Source: Peribacillus sp. FSL P2-0133 (lineage in GTDB: Bacteria; Bacillota; Bacilli; Bacillales; DSM-1321). From it: DNA of 64,000 nt. The stretch spans positions 4,834,001-4,898,000 of the forward strand of contig NZ_CP150254.1 of NCBI RefSeq assembly GCF_037975445.1. Direction: 5' to 3'. The notes under the pieces were generated by a model. The model was not told the origin of the DNA and made no database searches. It saw nothing but the letters and a program-made list of their open reading frames with translations. This document shows, in pieces, positions 2,438 through 57,814 of the stretch. Both the position numbers and the translations under genes were made by a program. Position 1 is the stretch's first letter; each line of letters begins with the position of its first letter.

Positions 2438-2499
2438 TTTTGTGGTTTTTCAACATGGATAATGAACTCTAAATTCTTGTTTTTGGTAAATGGCATCCA

Positions 2500-2657
2500 T
2501 TAAAAATGAATGTCATCAGGAGTAATCCCTAGCTCTTTAAACTTCGTACGATAAACTCTATATTCAGATAGATATGTCATAATGTAGTCTGAAATCTGCT
2601 CATTTATAGTGCTTCTATTTCAGCACGAGTTAGCGTTTCAATTTCTGAATTGTACAT
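2500..2657 (-). pseudogene. paaK: Remnant of phenylacetate-CoA ligase (paaK) 5' end
   Basis: A good ribosome binding site (GGAAGAGGT) precedes an ATG at 2657 that reads MYNSEIETLTRAEIEAL and then stops. Shifting frame by one base continues with YRVYRTKFKELGITPDDI before another stop. Phenylacetate-CoA ligases begin with a very similar segment (a Glu-Thr-Leu-x-Arg opening, then a FYRxKFxELGIxPDDI motif about 30 residues later), so this is the first ~50 codons of paaK with a frameshift and everything downstream lost. The gene would have activated the phenylacetate made by the two downstream enzymes. The remnant suggests the operon once ran paaK-feaB-tynA and lost its last step here. Family assignment is from remembered motifs. 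Confidence 0.6.
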
Positions 2658-2993
2658 GAATGCATACCTCTTCCATTATTTTATTGATTTTTTTAAAGAG
2701 ATAGAGTAATTAGCAACTCTAAAAAACACATAAATATACCCAAAAATTTAACAACCGTTACAAAAACGTTATATAAATAAACATTACTCTCCTTCAATTA
2801 ACCTTAAATCAATAACTCAAAAGTGTACTATGCATCCACTTATTCAGTTTTGATAAGGAGATGTTTATTTTCCTACCTCATACACTTCCGTTTCTTTCAT
2901 CTCCTTAGGTTAATTTAAAAAAGTCTTTCTAATTTATTAACTATTACATGTAATTATTTTATATTATCCAGAAAAATGAGAAAATTTACTATT

Positions 2994-3005
2994 ACCCAAA
3001 TGGGT
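2994..3005. promoter_or_regulatory. Inverted repeat, possible LuxR-type operator
   Basis: ACCCAAATGGGT has 5-bp arms ACCCA/TGGGT around AA, in an otherwise very A+T-rich stretch 77 bp upstream of the LuxR-type regulator. Position and symmetry suit an operator in the divergent control region. The rest of 2658-3081 is A+T-rich leader with no other gene visible. Confidence 0.3.
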
Positions 3006-3081
3006 CATTTTATATCAAAAAGTAATTCATTTTATTTTAAAATGTTATATAATCAAAAAAAGTTAACATGGAGGAAAGCCT

Positions 3082-3867
3082 ATGAAGGATATGTCTAACC
3101 CCAGCTACAAAAAAATTTTATCTTTTATGGATGAAATTACTTTTTCTAATGAAAATTTCCGTGAAAAAGTACTACAGACCTTTGAGAATTTATTTGGTTA
3201 CTGCCAATCTATTTTTTGGTTATGTGATGATAATAATGACTTGTTCGAACCTATTACGTTAAATATAGATAAATATGTTATGGATGATTATCTTAATAAC
3301 TTTTATCAATTAGATTTGCTAGTCCCAAAATATAATATGCAAAAAGCAAGTAAACAAAATGTTATAAAAAACCTTGATTTACTTCCGCCTGAATTATATG
3401 AAAAAAGTGTATACTACAATGACTTCATGTTAAAATATGGATTTTATTATGATGTGGGTGTTTTTTTATATGATAGAAACAGTATTAAAGGTGTTCTGAA
3501 CTTCGTTAGATCCAAAAAGGAGAAGCCTTTTAGTACATCCGATATTATGTGTTTAGAGGTTATTTCTAGGTTCTTATCGCAAAAAACAAGCGATTTCCCT
3601 TATCATTCTGTAAGCGTTCCCAAAGAAAACCTAATTAATCCTTTGAAAAATAAGATTCTGGCTAGTTCTCAAGATCTCAGACAACCAGATTTAACATTAA
3701 AAGAAGCAGAAATATTACAACTGGTTCTAAAAGGGCATACCAATATCACCATTGCCAGCGAACTGTTTATTAGTGTTAACACAGTAAAAAGACATTTGCA
3801 AAATCTTTATAGAAAGTTTGATGTCTCAAACCGAACAAGTTTATGCTATAAAATTGTTAAACCTTAA
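3082..3867 (+). CDS. LuxR-family transcriptional regulator with GAF-like N-terminal region
   Basis: A 261-residue protein starting at an ATG seven bases after GGAGGAAAG. Residues about 15-170 form a mixed alpha/beta region that looks like a GAF-type ligand sensor (LFGYCQSIFWLCDD near the start, then VGVFLYDRNSIKGVLNFVRS). The C-terminal 60 residues are a clear GerE/LuxR helix-turn-helix: LTLKEAEILQLVLKGHTN followed by IASELFISVNTVKRHLQN. There is no receiver domain, so it is probably ligand-responsive and not phosphorylated. It is transcribed divergently from the amine oxidase operon, which makes it the likely local regulator; the ligand might be the amine or aldehyde, which is inference. Confidence 0.8.
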   Translation: MKDMSNPSYKKILSFMDEITFSNENFREKVLQTFENLFGYCQSIFWLCDDNNDLFEPITLNIDKYVMDDYLNNFYQLDLLVPKYNMQKASKQNVIKNLDLLPPELYEKSVYYNDFMLKYGFYYDVGVFLYDRNSIKGVLNFVRSKKEKPFSTSDIMCLEVISRFLSQKTSDFPYHSVSVPKENLINPLKNKILASSQDLRQPDLTLKEAEILQLVLKGHTNITIASELFISVNTVKRHLQNLYRKFDVSNRTSLCYKIVKP

Positions 3868-50150: not shown

Positions 50151-50159
50151 CATATCATA
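50151..50159 (+). promoter_or_regulatory. Sporulation-type -10 element (sigma-K/sigma-E-like)
   Basis: CATATCATA fits the sigma-K -10 consensus CATANNNTA exactly and resembles the sigma-E -10. It lies 30 bases before the start of the small Ser/Thr/Gly-rich gene. No convincing -35 is seen at standard spacing, so this is suggestive of mother-cell expression only. Confidence 0.4.
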
Positions 50160-50188
50160 AAATTAATCTTATTAAAGGAGGAGTTTGT

Positions 50189-50308
50189 ATGCCGAAAGGG
50201 AAAAAAGGAAAAGCAGCTTCATCTGGCAGTTCATCTACCGGTAGCACTTCTACTGGTAGCACTTCTACTGGCAGTAATTCCACTGGCAATAAATCCACTG
50301 GAAAATAA
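50189..50308 (+). CDS. Small Ser/Thr/Gly repeat protein with Lys-rich N-terminus
   Basis: ATG at 50189 five bases after a very strong AAAGGAGGAG. The 39-residue product starts MPKGKKGKAASSG and continues as pentapeptide units of the form (T/N/K)STG(S/N/K), encoded by a 15-bp repeat, ending at TAA 50306-50308. Past that stop the same frame continues with the same repeat to 50440 and a basic end (GRGKKRRR). No membrane segment or known fold. It is upstream of the CotH-SET gene, and Ser/Thr/Lys content makes it a possible substrate of both domains (inference). Confidence 0.6.
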   Translation: MPKGKKGKAASSGSSSTGSTSTGSTSTGSNSTGNKSTGK

Positions 50309-50572: not shown

Positions 50573-52093
50573 ATGTCTTATCATATTCCATCTTATTTCT
50601 TAATGATAGAAGAAGAAGATCTAGAAGATTTACGTGCGGATATTTGGAGCGATGACCCTATTCCCGCCCATTTGAAAGTAGAAAACGACATTTATGTTAT
50701 CGATATTGCCTATCGGGGCTCTTATACCCGCAAATTCCGGAAAAGATCCTATTGGATTGATTTCATCGAGCCAGAACGATTCTTTGGCGCCCACAAAATC
50801 CATCTCAATGCAGAATACAGGGATCCTTCCCTCATTCGCAATAAACTCTCACTCGATTTCTTTCAAGACCTTGGTGTCCTTTCCCCTCATAGCCAACACA
50901 TCAACCTATTCCGAAATGGCACGTTTAAAGGTGTGTATTTACAATTGGATTCCGTCGATGGGGTTTTTTTAGAAAAAAGAGGACTTCCTGCCGGCCCGAT
51001 TTATTATGCTGTCAACAATAATGCCAACTTTTCATTGGAAAGGGACGGGAAAGCGAAAGACTCCCTTACGTCAGGCTATAAACAAGCGTTTGGCAAACCC
51101 GCCGATGATGAATATCTAATCGAATTCATCAAAAAAATCAACACCACCCCACTTGCAAAGTTTCCTGAAGTAGTCTCGCAGCATCTTGATATCCATAAAT
51201 ACTTACGCTGGCTGGTTGGAGCCGTTTGCACCATGAATAACGACGGTTTCACTCATAACTATGCACTATATCGCAATAGTAAAACGAAGTTATTTGAAAT
51301 CATTCCTTGGGATTACGATGCCACTTGGGGACGCAAAGTCAGTGGGGGGATCATGGAGCACACATATGTCCCTATCGGAGGGAAAAAGACAAACCACCTT
51401 ATTCCTCTGCTCTTGCAGGTTCCGGAATACAGTAAGTTCTACAAAGACCTCTTGGTTGAAACATTGGAAACCACATTTACTGTGAAGCATATGGAAAATA
51501 AAGTATTACCACTGCACCAGGGCATACGCCCCCACATCCTTCTTGATCCATATAAAAAGAGAAAGATTGATCTATTCGACAAAGAACCGGAATTCATCTT
51601 CGAATTCATCCGCAAACGCAGTGATTACTTAAATAAGCACCTTGGTGGCCTAGATGAAAAAAATGCCACGACACAACTGATAGCCAAACAGGACCGAAAA
51701 GGGGGAGTTGCTTCCGTGTCACCAATCTGCATTAAAAATACGGGGAAGTATGGCAGGGGAGTATATGCTACAAGGGATATTAAAAAAGATGAACTTATTG
51801 AGGTATCACCTGTCATCATTTCACCCAAACATGAATGGAAATATCTAAAGAAAACCGCACTCTTTCCTCACTGTTTCTATTGGGGAGATGACGATGAAAC
51901 TGTCATTGCCTTAGGAAATGGTTCACTATTCAATCATTCATACACTCCAAATGCGACATTCGATAATAATTTAGAAGATTTAACGATAGACTTTTATGCA
52001 CATAAAGATATAAAGGCTGGCGAGGAAATAATGATCAATTACAATGGTGAACCTGATAATAAATCCCCGTTATGGTTCGATGTCATCGAGTAG
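50573..52093 (+). CDS. CotH kinase domain fused to SET lysine-methyltransferase domain
   Basis: 506 residues, ATG at 50573 after GGAAGGTGAG. Residues about 40-355 are a CotH spore-coat protein kinase: RGSYTRKFRKRSYWIDF (48-64), NKLSLDFFQDLGV, FKGVYLQLDSVDGVFLEKRG, catalytic Asp 224 in MNNDGFTHNY, and metal-binding Asp 247/Asp 249 in PWDYDATWG. Residues about 383-503 are a complete SET domain: GKYGRGVYATRDIKKDE (SAM-binding Gly 391, 394, 396), SLFNHSYTPNA (454-460, the NHSxxPN motif), and GEEIMINYNG (Tyr 490). CotH enzymes phosphorylate Ser in repetitive coat proteins such as CotG/CotB; bacterial SET proteins methylate Lys. I know of no described fusion of the two. Both active sites look intact. 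Confidence 0.9.
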   Translation: MSYHIPSYFLMIEEEDLEDLRADIWSDDPIPAHLKVENDIYVIDIAYRGSYTRKFRKRSYWIDFIEPERFFGAHKIHLNAEYRDPSLIRNKLSLDFFQDLGVLSPHSQHINLFRNGTFKGVYLQLDSVDGVFLEKRGLPAGPIYYAVNNNANFSLERDGKAKDSLTSGYKQAFGKPADDEYLIEFIKKINTTPLAKFPEVVSQHLDIHKYLRWLVGAVCTMNNDGFTHNYALYRNSKTKLFEIIPWDYDATWGRKVSGGIMEHTYVPIGGKKTNHLIPLLLQVPEYSKFYKDLLVETLETTFTVKHMENKVLPLHQGIRPHILLDPYKKRKIDLFDKEPEFIFEFIRKRSDYLNKHLGGLDEKNATTQLIAKQDRKGGVASVSPICIKNTGKYGRGVYATRDIKKDELIEVSPVIISPKHEWKYLKKTALFPHCFYWGDDDETVIALGNGSLFNHSYTPNATFDNNLEDLTIDFYAHKDIKAGEEIMINYNGEPDNKSPLWFDVIE

Positions 52094-55976: not shown

Positions 55977-56296
55977 GTACAAGTCATTTTCAACGGCAAG
56001 CGTAAAAAAGGCCAACCAGGAAAAACTGATTAACCTGTTCATATGTAAAGGATTTCGTTATCTTGAAATAACAGGTAGCCTTACTTTAAGAACGGGACTG
56101 TCAATATCAGGCTTACATTCCCAGCAGTAAACAAAAATAATTCGACCTGCCCTAGAGTGGAACTACAACAGAAGAATCGTAATTAGATTCCCTATTTTCT
56201 TCTATATAGGGCCTTTCCACAATGTACCTCTATTTTATAGCGATTCTCCATAGTAAACTGGTAAAGTTAAATTTTACAAAGGGGAATAAAATAATT

Positions 56297-57814
56297 GTGA
56301 AAAAATTCTTTGGATGTTTTATTATATTAAGCCTTCTTTGTGCATGTCTATTTCCAACTAACGGTAATTCATCAAACAAAACCCTTTACATAGGTTCTGT
56401 TAAAGTGGACAATACAAAAGTTTTTAGTTCTCCTAAATTAGGTTCCACTCAATTAAAGCCCTTAAAAAAGGGCGAGGAGTTTCCCGTCATTTCTTCTTCC
56501 GTTGGGGATTCCGCGGGGCCTATTATCCATAAAGTAAAGGCTGGAAACACATTATGGAAAGTAGCAAATCAATATGGTGTTTCAGTAAGTGAGTTACAAA
56601 AAGAAAATAAATTAACTTCGACCGAAATAAATGTTGGCCAAAACCTGAAGATTCCCCAGAAATATAAGATCCATAAGGTTGTATCAGGAGATACATTGTG
56701 GAAGATTTCTACTAAATATAAGGTAACCACAAGTGATTTGACGAAATTAAACAACTTACATACGGTTACCCTTAAAGTTGGCCAAAAATTGAAGATTCCT
56801 GATTATTACTACCAAGTTCAATTGCTTGATGGTAAAAAGGGATGGATAAAGACATCCCAGCTTCAAAAAAAGGCGCAAAAACCTATCGTCATGAGCTGGA
56901 CGCATAATGGATCGAAAGAAAACTACACCCAACAAATTAAACAACCTAATTTAAATGTAGTATCTCCCCGTTCCTATACGCTGAAGGATTCCGGTAATTT
57001 CGTTTCCGTTTCTGCGGATGCAAAATTCGTCCAAAACGCCCATAAACAAGGAAAACAAGTTTGGCAGCTTATCGGAAATCAATTTGACCCTGTTTTAACT
57101 GGTTCTGTACTAGGCAATACAAAAAAACGCCAGAAATTAGTTTCAACTTTATGTGATTCACTTGTTAAAACTAAAAGTGATGGAATAAATGTAGACTTTG
57201 AAAACATCGATCCAAAAAACAAGAAGGACTTTGTTCTTTTCATAGGCGAACTGAAAAAGGCACTAAAACCGCATGGAATTAAAGTATCCGTGGATGTCAC
57301 CCGAGAAAATGAAGACCCTTTTTGGTCAAAAAGTCTGGATAGGAAAGCACTTGGCAAAATAGCAGACTACATCATCATAATGGGTTATGACGAGCATTGG
57401 GGAGGGAGCCCAGTAGCCGGGTCCGTTTCCTCGTTACCTTGGATCAAAGAAGGAACTAAGCTTTTAATGAAAGAAGTACCCGCCCATAAGATCATATTGG
57501 CTGTACCATTTTATACGAGAGAATGGGTAACCGATTTATCGACCAAAAAAGTGAAAAGCCATGACCGTACCATGGCAGAGGTCAACAAAATCATTTCATC
57601 TCATAAACTTAAGAAGGTATGGGATAAAAAGACTCAACAAAATTACGTGGAGTATACTTCCAAAGGGGAAAAGCATCAAATATGGATAGAAGATAAAAAA
57701 TCGATGAAGCTCCGTATTGACCTGGTAAAACAAAATCATCTAGGCGGTGTATCTGCTTGGTACCTTGGATCAGAAACCCCCGACATTTGGGATGTATATC
57801 ATTTTAATCAATAG
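56297..57814 (+). CDS. Secreted LysM-GH18 glycosidase with split SH3-like domain
   Basis: 505 residues. Start taken at GTG 56297 (VKKFFGCFIILSLLCACLF signal), after AAAGGGG; the longer frame upstream is unlikely. An N-terminal half-SH3 (SVKVDNTKVFSSP ... LKKGEEFPVISS) is interrupted by two LysM modules (HKVKAGNTLWKVANQYGVSV, HKVVSGDTLWKISTKYKVTT). The rest of the SH3 follows (YYYQVQLLDGKKGWIKTSQL). Residues from about 220 form a GH18 barrel with the catalytic DGINVDFENID (DxxDxDxE type) and closing SAWYLGSETPDIW. Similar to spore-cortex or cell-wall N-acetylglucosaminidases of the YaaH/SleL/YvbX type. Confidence 0.88.
   Translation: MKKFFGCFIILSLLCACLFPTNGNSSNKTLYIGSVKVDNTKVFSSPKLGSTQLKPLKKGEEFPVISSSVGDSAGPIIHKVKAGNTLWKVANQYGVSVSELQKENKLTSTEINVGQNLKIPQKYKIHKVVSGDTLWKISTKYKVTTSDLTKLNNLHTVTLKVGQKLKIPDYYYQVQLLDGKKGWIKTSQLQKKAQKPIVMSWTHNGSKENYTQQIKQPNLNVVSPRSYTLKDSGNFVSVSADAKFVQNAHKQGKQVWQLIGNQFDPVLTGSVLGNTKKRQKLVSTLCDSLVKTKSDGINVDFENIDPKNKKDFVLFIGELKKALKPHGIKVSVDVTRENEDPFWSKSLDRKALGKIADYIIIMGYDEHWGGSPVAGSVSSLPWIKEGTKLLMKEVPAHKIILAVPFYTREWVTDLSTKKVKSHDRTMAEVNKIISSHKLKKVWDKKTQQNYVEYTSKGEKHQIWIEDKKSMKLRIDLVKQNHLGGVSAWYLGSETPDIWDVYHFNQ

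Follow-up and report, generated by a model that had tools for sequence, protein, structure and literature searches.

A CotH-type kinase fused to a SET methyltransferase domain in Peribacillus: a lineage-specific step within an older conserved gene cassette

A single frame of Peribacillus sp. FSL P2-0133, a soil bacterium near Peribacillus simplex, joins a kinase domain of the CotH type to a SET lysine methyltransferase domain. The window analyzed here, the whole stretch of 64,000 nucleotides that contains this frame, also holds a short repeat gene upstream of it, and the locus offers a concrete candidate target and a partner for a SET enzyme inside a bacterium. The features are collected in Table 1.

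Table 1. Features of the CotH-SET locus (window positions)
Feature	Position	Strand	Details
Possible -10 element of a sporulation (sigma-K-like) promoter, ahead of the repeat gene	50151..50159	+	CATATCATA
Ribosome-binding site of the repeat gene	50174..50183	+	AAAGGAGGAG
Candidate substrate (repeat) gene	50189..50308	+	39 aa; MPKGKKGK, then STG repeats; ends at in-frame TAA
Continuation of that frame past the TAA	50309..50440	+	Ends TGRGKKRRR; belongs to the same gene in an 88%-identical fused clade
CotH-SET fusion gene	50573..52093	+	506 aa, single frame
CotH kinase half, residues 1-358	50573..51646	+	Asp-224 codon 51242-51244; PWDYD 51305-51319
Linker, residues 359-383	51647..51721	+	AAAGGGGGAG...GTG at 51698-51718
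SET methyltransferase half, residues 384-506	51722..52090	+	NHSYTPN 51932-51952; Asn-489-Tyr-490 52037-52042

Two domains and a linker in one frame

The preliminary description of the window had claimed a complete CotH signature and a complete SET domain in one uninterrupted frame, and had named a profile search of both halves as the way to check them. Both claims were borne out. The CotH half matches PF08757 with 259.6 bits against a curated cut-off of 23.8 (E 6e-77, profile positions 1-322 of 322) and carries the active-site motifs RGxxxR, NxDGFxHNY, and PWDYD at residues 48, 222, and 245, and the SET half matches PF00856 with 62.1 bits against a cut-off of 22.4 (E 7e-17). The SET fold was found with its SAM and catalytic motifs kept, and the loss of SAM-binding residues, which the same description had named as a ground for giving up the assignment, is not seen. 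Tyr-490 of the window SET aligns with Tyr-105 of vSET, which we take to be the catalytic residue. In a set of 48 distinct SET cores scoring at least 135 bits, which takes in some free SET proteins, the GxG-type and NHS[YF]xPN motifs are present in all 48 and EExxxNY in 45, the remaining 3 retaining NY. This conservation and the position of Tyr-490 make it improbable that the SET half has given up catalysis and now serves CotH as a dock or scaffold for holding a lysine-rich substrate, although its fusion to a kinase through a flexible linker would fit a role in binding. In the CotH half, Asp-224 would be the equivalent of Asp-228 of Bacillus subtilis CotH, of which the mutant D228Q is reported to be inactive (PMC7821199).

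The linker is best read as a one-time intergenic region that is now translated. The stretch AAAGGGGGAG...GTG within it looks like the former start signals of a separate SET gene. In other fused genomes the RBS-like stretch and the GTG are eroded, with GTA at this codon in 3 of 11 rows, and a conserved internal restart yielding free SET was rejected on this ground. Structure prediction, proposed earlier for the region around residues 360-390, gave pLDDT values below 50 at residues 364-383, within the linker; the SET half of the full-length model is of low quality. Compared with the 88%-identical clade, CotH and SET each give a dN/dS of 0.12-0.16 and the linker gives 0.40-1.08; in this comparison both halves are constrained and the linker is drifting. 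Against three close relatives, where changes are few, the values are 0.22-0.31 for CotH and 0.14-0.41 for SET.

Distribution of the fusion and of the unfused pair

The same fusion had been proposed as something to search for in other genomes, and the whole protein was found in one stop-free frame in 9 of 36 genomes of the genus. Because these genomes carry it uninterrupted, a sequencing artefact is ruled out, and the fusion is confirmed as real. The preliminary description had coupled such an artefact with split orthologues as the grounds on which the fusion would fall; orthologues are indeed split in other genera, and only the artefact is refuted. Named records with the fusion include Peribacillus simplex RUG2-6 and Peribacillus sp. 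Bi96, some of the named fusion loci probably being the same genomes as others in the sample. A draw of 199 genomes from the order contained the uninterrupted fusion in 2, both from the genus. In each of two trees the fused rows group as a single clade, with 8 of 44 rows for SET (100/97) and 9 of 109 rows for CotH (100).

The unfused pair is spread more widely. Among 39 named loci retrieved with the fusion protein, 4 are fused, 19 have CotH and SET as two ORFs on one strand, and 16 have CotH without SET within the stretch fetched. Eight other named genera keep CotH and SET as separate neighbors, namely Domibacillus, Psychrobacillus, Rummeliibacillus, Sporosarcina, Solibacillus, Neobacillus (N. 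fumarioli), Ornithinibacillus, and Aneurinibacillus, and two strains named Bacillus also have the split form. In 17 split loci SET lies behind CotH, its first start codon falling between -8 and 197 nt relative to the CotH stop, and in 2 Domibacillus SET comes first. In the family of genome G467, a linked-type SET was found at E 1e-55 in 18 of 261 genomes and adjoins CotH in 18 of 18, these comprising 9 already among the named loci, G467 itself, which had come up before, and 8 that are new. An even draw of the class, of 398 genomes, gave SET profile scores above 220 bits in 3, the next score being 177, and in all 3 the SET adjoins or is fused to CotH.

Free SETs of another kind are common across the order, and the window genome has one (L006). 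It is about 56% identical to the window SET over the SET core. On the SET tree the free SETs branch separately from those linked to CotH (99/95), and they have no CotH neighbor in the loci examined. Two unlinked SET rows, L108 and L112, fall inside the CotH-linked group. On the CotH tree, linked CotHs lie in one 46-row clade (20 adjacent, 9 fused, 17 without SET), and three more, from G022, G002, and G003 (3 of the 36 genomes of the genus), lie outside it in a distant CotH clade. In these three a SET of the linked clade stands directly behind a CotH that is about 50% identical to the window CotH; at L109 the first SET start codon lies 13 nt past the CotH stop. The CotG-type partners of the distant-clade pairs are lysine-rich (K17 R2 at L056, K16 R1 at L066, K11 R0 at L070), and K/(K+R) of the CotG-type partner is 0.00-0.49 in 15 genus loci without SET; as a single event, the lysine-rich partner of the second CotH clade is only suggestive.

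This distribution bears on whether a chance read-through joined unrelated neighbors with no joint function. The resemblance of the linker to an old intergenic region, and its drift, would suit such an accident, but it is made very improbable by CotH-SET linkage in the eight other genera, the 18 of 18 adjacency in the G467 family, the swapped order in two Domibacillus, and the re-association of SET with a second CotH clade. The two genes were fused late and in one lineage, within a cassette that is older and conserved.

The upstream repeat gene and its lysine head

The repeat gene of the window has a strong RBS, and its 39-residue product, as judged from sequence, is probably the target of the fusion enzyme; the continuation of the frame past the stop is probably untranslated here. 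In the 88%-identical clade the gene is uninterrupted and encodes 67-115 residues with a GKK(K)RRR tail. The stop is present in the window and in five close relatives, in two of which (possibly one genome) the later part is out of frame. A counterpart lies at the same place in relatives, and the typical upstream protein is small, with Ser/Thr-rich repeats and often a lysine head (MPKGKKGK, MPKGKKAR). Of 32 SET-linked loci, 28 yielded an upstream repeat protein, as did 49 of 77 loci without SET, by a rule that may choose the wrong frame (L085, L088, L095, L097, L098, and L101 look wrong) and that misses L012, L029, L049, and L066 among the SET-linked loci, L049 and L066 in fact carrying short repeat proteins. 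On the CotH tree, co-occurrence of SET with any repeat protein was not significant, with 3-5 independent pairs. Two tandem copies of the repeat gene lie beside CotH-SET in Sporosarcina sp. P13 (L245, 3091-3333 and 3488-3736, minus strand), and at L244 (2207-5224, minus strand) a repeat gene is flanked by two CotH genes, with SET behind the second.

The lysine head occurs in 18 of 26 SET-linked repeat proteins with a start and in 1 of 43 others (Fisher p 1.5e-9, kinship ignored). The pattern was picked after inspection, and it is present in 6 of 8 loci first seen after it was fixed. At L108, a SET of the linked clade stands without CotH, and the next gene on the same strand begins MPKKGKKSP and has no S/T repeats; in Rossellomorea L035 and L036, which have no SET, the S/T repeats are kept and the heads contain more arginine (MPPRKPKKH and MPPKRRKKH). 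That the head goes with SET and the repeat with CotH is the best clue to which enzyme may act where. The association has exceptions: L020 has a lysine head and no SET, and SET occurs without the head at L015, L016, L018, L019, L030, L031, L237, L244, and L245 (the same record as L015), most of which have other lysine blocks. At L020, L037, and L108 the lysine head is followed by an apparent folded domain, for which a profile scan of the L108 protein returned no Pfam match.

Lysine content in general is a less specific feature. The mean K/(K+R) of the repeat proteins is 0.68 for the 28 linked to SET and 0.33 for the 49 without it (p 5.6e-6), a large raw difference that comes down to 2-3 independent contrasts, and a lysine-rich substrate was dropped as a marker of SET; many lysine-rich CotG-type proteins occur without SET. 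An N-terminal GKK DNA pattern in the window genome gave counts of 84 versus 107 and 98 versus 79 in reversed-pattern controls; since these counts are close to the controls and are not resolved to gene starts, we claim no background rate.

The SET might instead act on another protein, such as CotH itself, canonical CotG or CotB, or a mother-cell protein, its neighborhood reflecting shared sporulation expression. Several SET-linked repeat proteins do lack the GKK head, and at L112 (G004, 2493-3577) the SET ORF is intact next to a fragmented CotH and a degenerate repeat gene. Such a target is nevertheless rather unlikely, since most SET-linked repeat proteins carry lysine blocks and a lysine head adjoins SET at L108, where CotH and S/T repeats are both absent.

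With regard to expression, 8 of 14 lineages have, at 37-40 bp ahead of the repeat gene, the pattern ATA[CT]NAT[AG], an 8-mer related to CATATCATA that presumably resembles the sigma-K -10 element (0.80 expected; a count that none of 500 shuffles reached). The pattern was chosen after the sequences had been looked at. The element CATANNNTA precedes the SET-linked repeat gene in 3 of 14 lineages (0.44 expected; a count reached in 2 of 500 shuffles). Among 43 repeat proteins that lack SET, the former precedes 7 (1.97 expected) and the latter 17 (1.42 expected); CATANNNTA is therefore no mark of the SET cassette and was ruled out as one. The cassette may be expressed late, in the mother cell, under control of the sigma-K type.

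The proposed cassette and its relation to known systems

The explanation that we favor, at a probability of about 0.6, is a spore-coat modification cassette in which one protein would receive phosphate on its repeats from CotH and methyl groups on its lysine blocks from SET. It builds on the domains and motifs, the conserved neighborhood, the split-to-fused history, and the constraint on both halves, all of which are observed; its substrate, chemistry, and location in the coat are inferred, as follows. A small disordered protein with Ser/Thr-Gly repeats, a lysine-rich head, and usually a basic tail would be made in the mother cell late in sporulation together with a CotH-type kinase and a SET lysine methyltransferase. 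CotH would phosphorylate the Ser/Thr repeats, as its B. subtilis counterpart does with CotG and CotB, and SET would methylate lysines in the GKKGK-type blocks, and the two modifications, made by one enzyme assembly, would set the charge and the assembly of the repeat protein. In one Peribacillus lineage, loss of the CotH stop would have placed both activities on one flexible two-domain polypeptide. Against this model, the window's own repeat gene is stopped after 39 codons, lysine head and SET occur one without the other in the exceptions listed above, and SET outlasts the decayed CotH and repeat gene in L112. The occurrence of CotH and SET as neighbors in relatives suggests that some spores carry a phosphorylated and methylated structural protein, and a coat substrate bearing both modifications, as the preliminary description proposed, is the best-supported reading of these loci. 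That description is partly supported; it did not take in the older cassette, the candidate substrate gene at 50189, or the ordinary CotG/CotH pair of the genome. The broader proposition is that spores of several Bacillales genera contain a histone-tail- or silaffin-like coat protein whose Ser/Thr phosphorylation and Lys methylation are the work of a dedicated enzyme pair, fused in Peribacillus, with a modification code on a bacterial structural protein and a native job away from chromatin for a bacterial SET enzyme; it appears to us evenly balanced. Fused, split, and order-swapped loci, loci with SET re-associated with another CotH, and loci missing SET or CotH provide a natural test series. 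If the cassette model is true, lysine methylation would join a coat-assembly pathway so far described for phosphorylation only in the literature covered. Elsewhere in the window (56222-57814, plus strand), a 530-residue protein has, by eye, LysM-like repeats and a glycosyl hydrolase-like part and is possibly a spore-wall enzyme.

The preliminary description knew of no CotH-SET fusion, and a literature search over titles and the starts of abstracts, with few subscription journals, likewise found no paper on a CotH-SET pairing; the same titles and abstract starts yielded none on lysine methylation of spore-coat proteins. The matches at this level included two fungal papers naming CotH and a SET domain and a metaproteomics paper. 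In the portion of a review of bacterial SET proteins that was covered, effects on host chromatin dominate the presentation, CotH receives no mention, and a B. anthracis SET protein, whose clade is not placed here, is described as dispensable for forming spores and for their germination (PMC3980110), a point against the model. Extension of the CotG/CotH module by a lysine methyltransferase is conserved and, within the reach of these searches, undescribed.

In the B. subtilis cotB/cotG/cotH module, as in the Peribacillus locus, a CotH-type kinase adjoins the gene for a repetitive, Ser-/Lys-rich, and highly charged coat protein (PMC7821199, PMC9765600). CotG and CotB are reported to be phosphorylated by CotH, and phosphorylation of CotG to balance its charge and permit its assembly (PMC9765600, PMC7821199). 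In contrast to this module, the Peribacillus locus has a SET added or fused, and its repeat gene is co-directional and short with a lysine head, whereas canonical CotG is divergent with its own N-terminal region. A Ser/Thr-rich repeat gene cut by a stop is present beside cotH in the window, and the divergent CotG type is absent there; the locus would work like a CotG/CotH module and is not a canonical member. The window genome has an ordinary divergent CotG/CotH pair elsewhere (L001, G000:C1 around 1403418), with a strongly Arg-rich CotG and no SET, and a third, distant CotH-domain protein in a 596-codon open frame (L003/L004, G000:C1:5764700-5765836). Schizosaccharomyces pombe Set7 and PBCV-1 vSET share with the window SET the compact fold and the GxG-type, NHSxxPN, and catalytic-Tyr motifs, and the window SET differs from them in being linked or fused to a spore-coat kinase, with no histone substrate implied. 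Diatom silaffins, which function in silica deposition, carry phosphoserine together with modified lysine on a repetitive basic protein. By analogy only, the Peribacillus cassette would, if the model is right, resemble them in placing phosphoserine and modified lysine on one repetitive basic protein.
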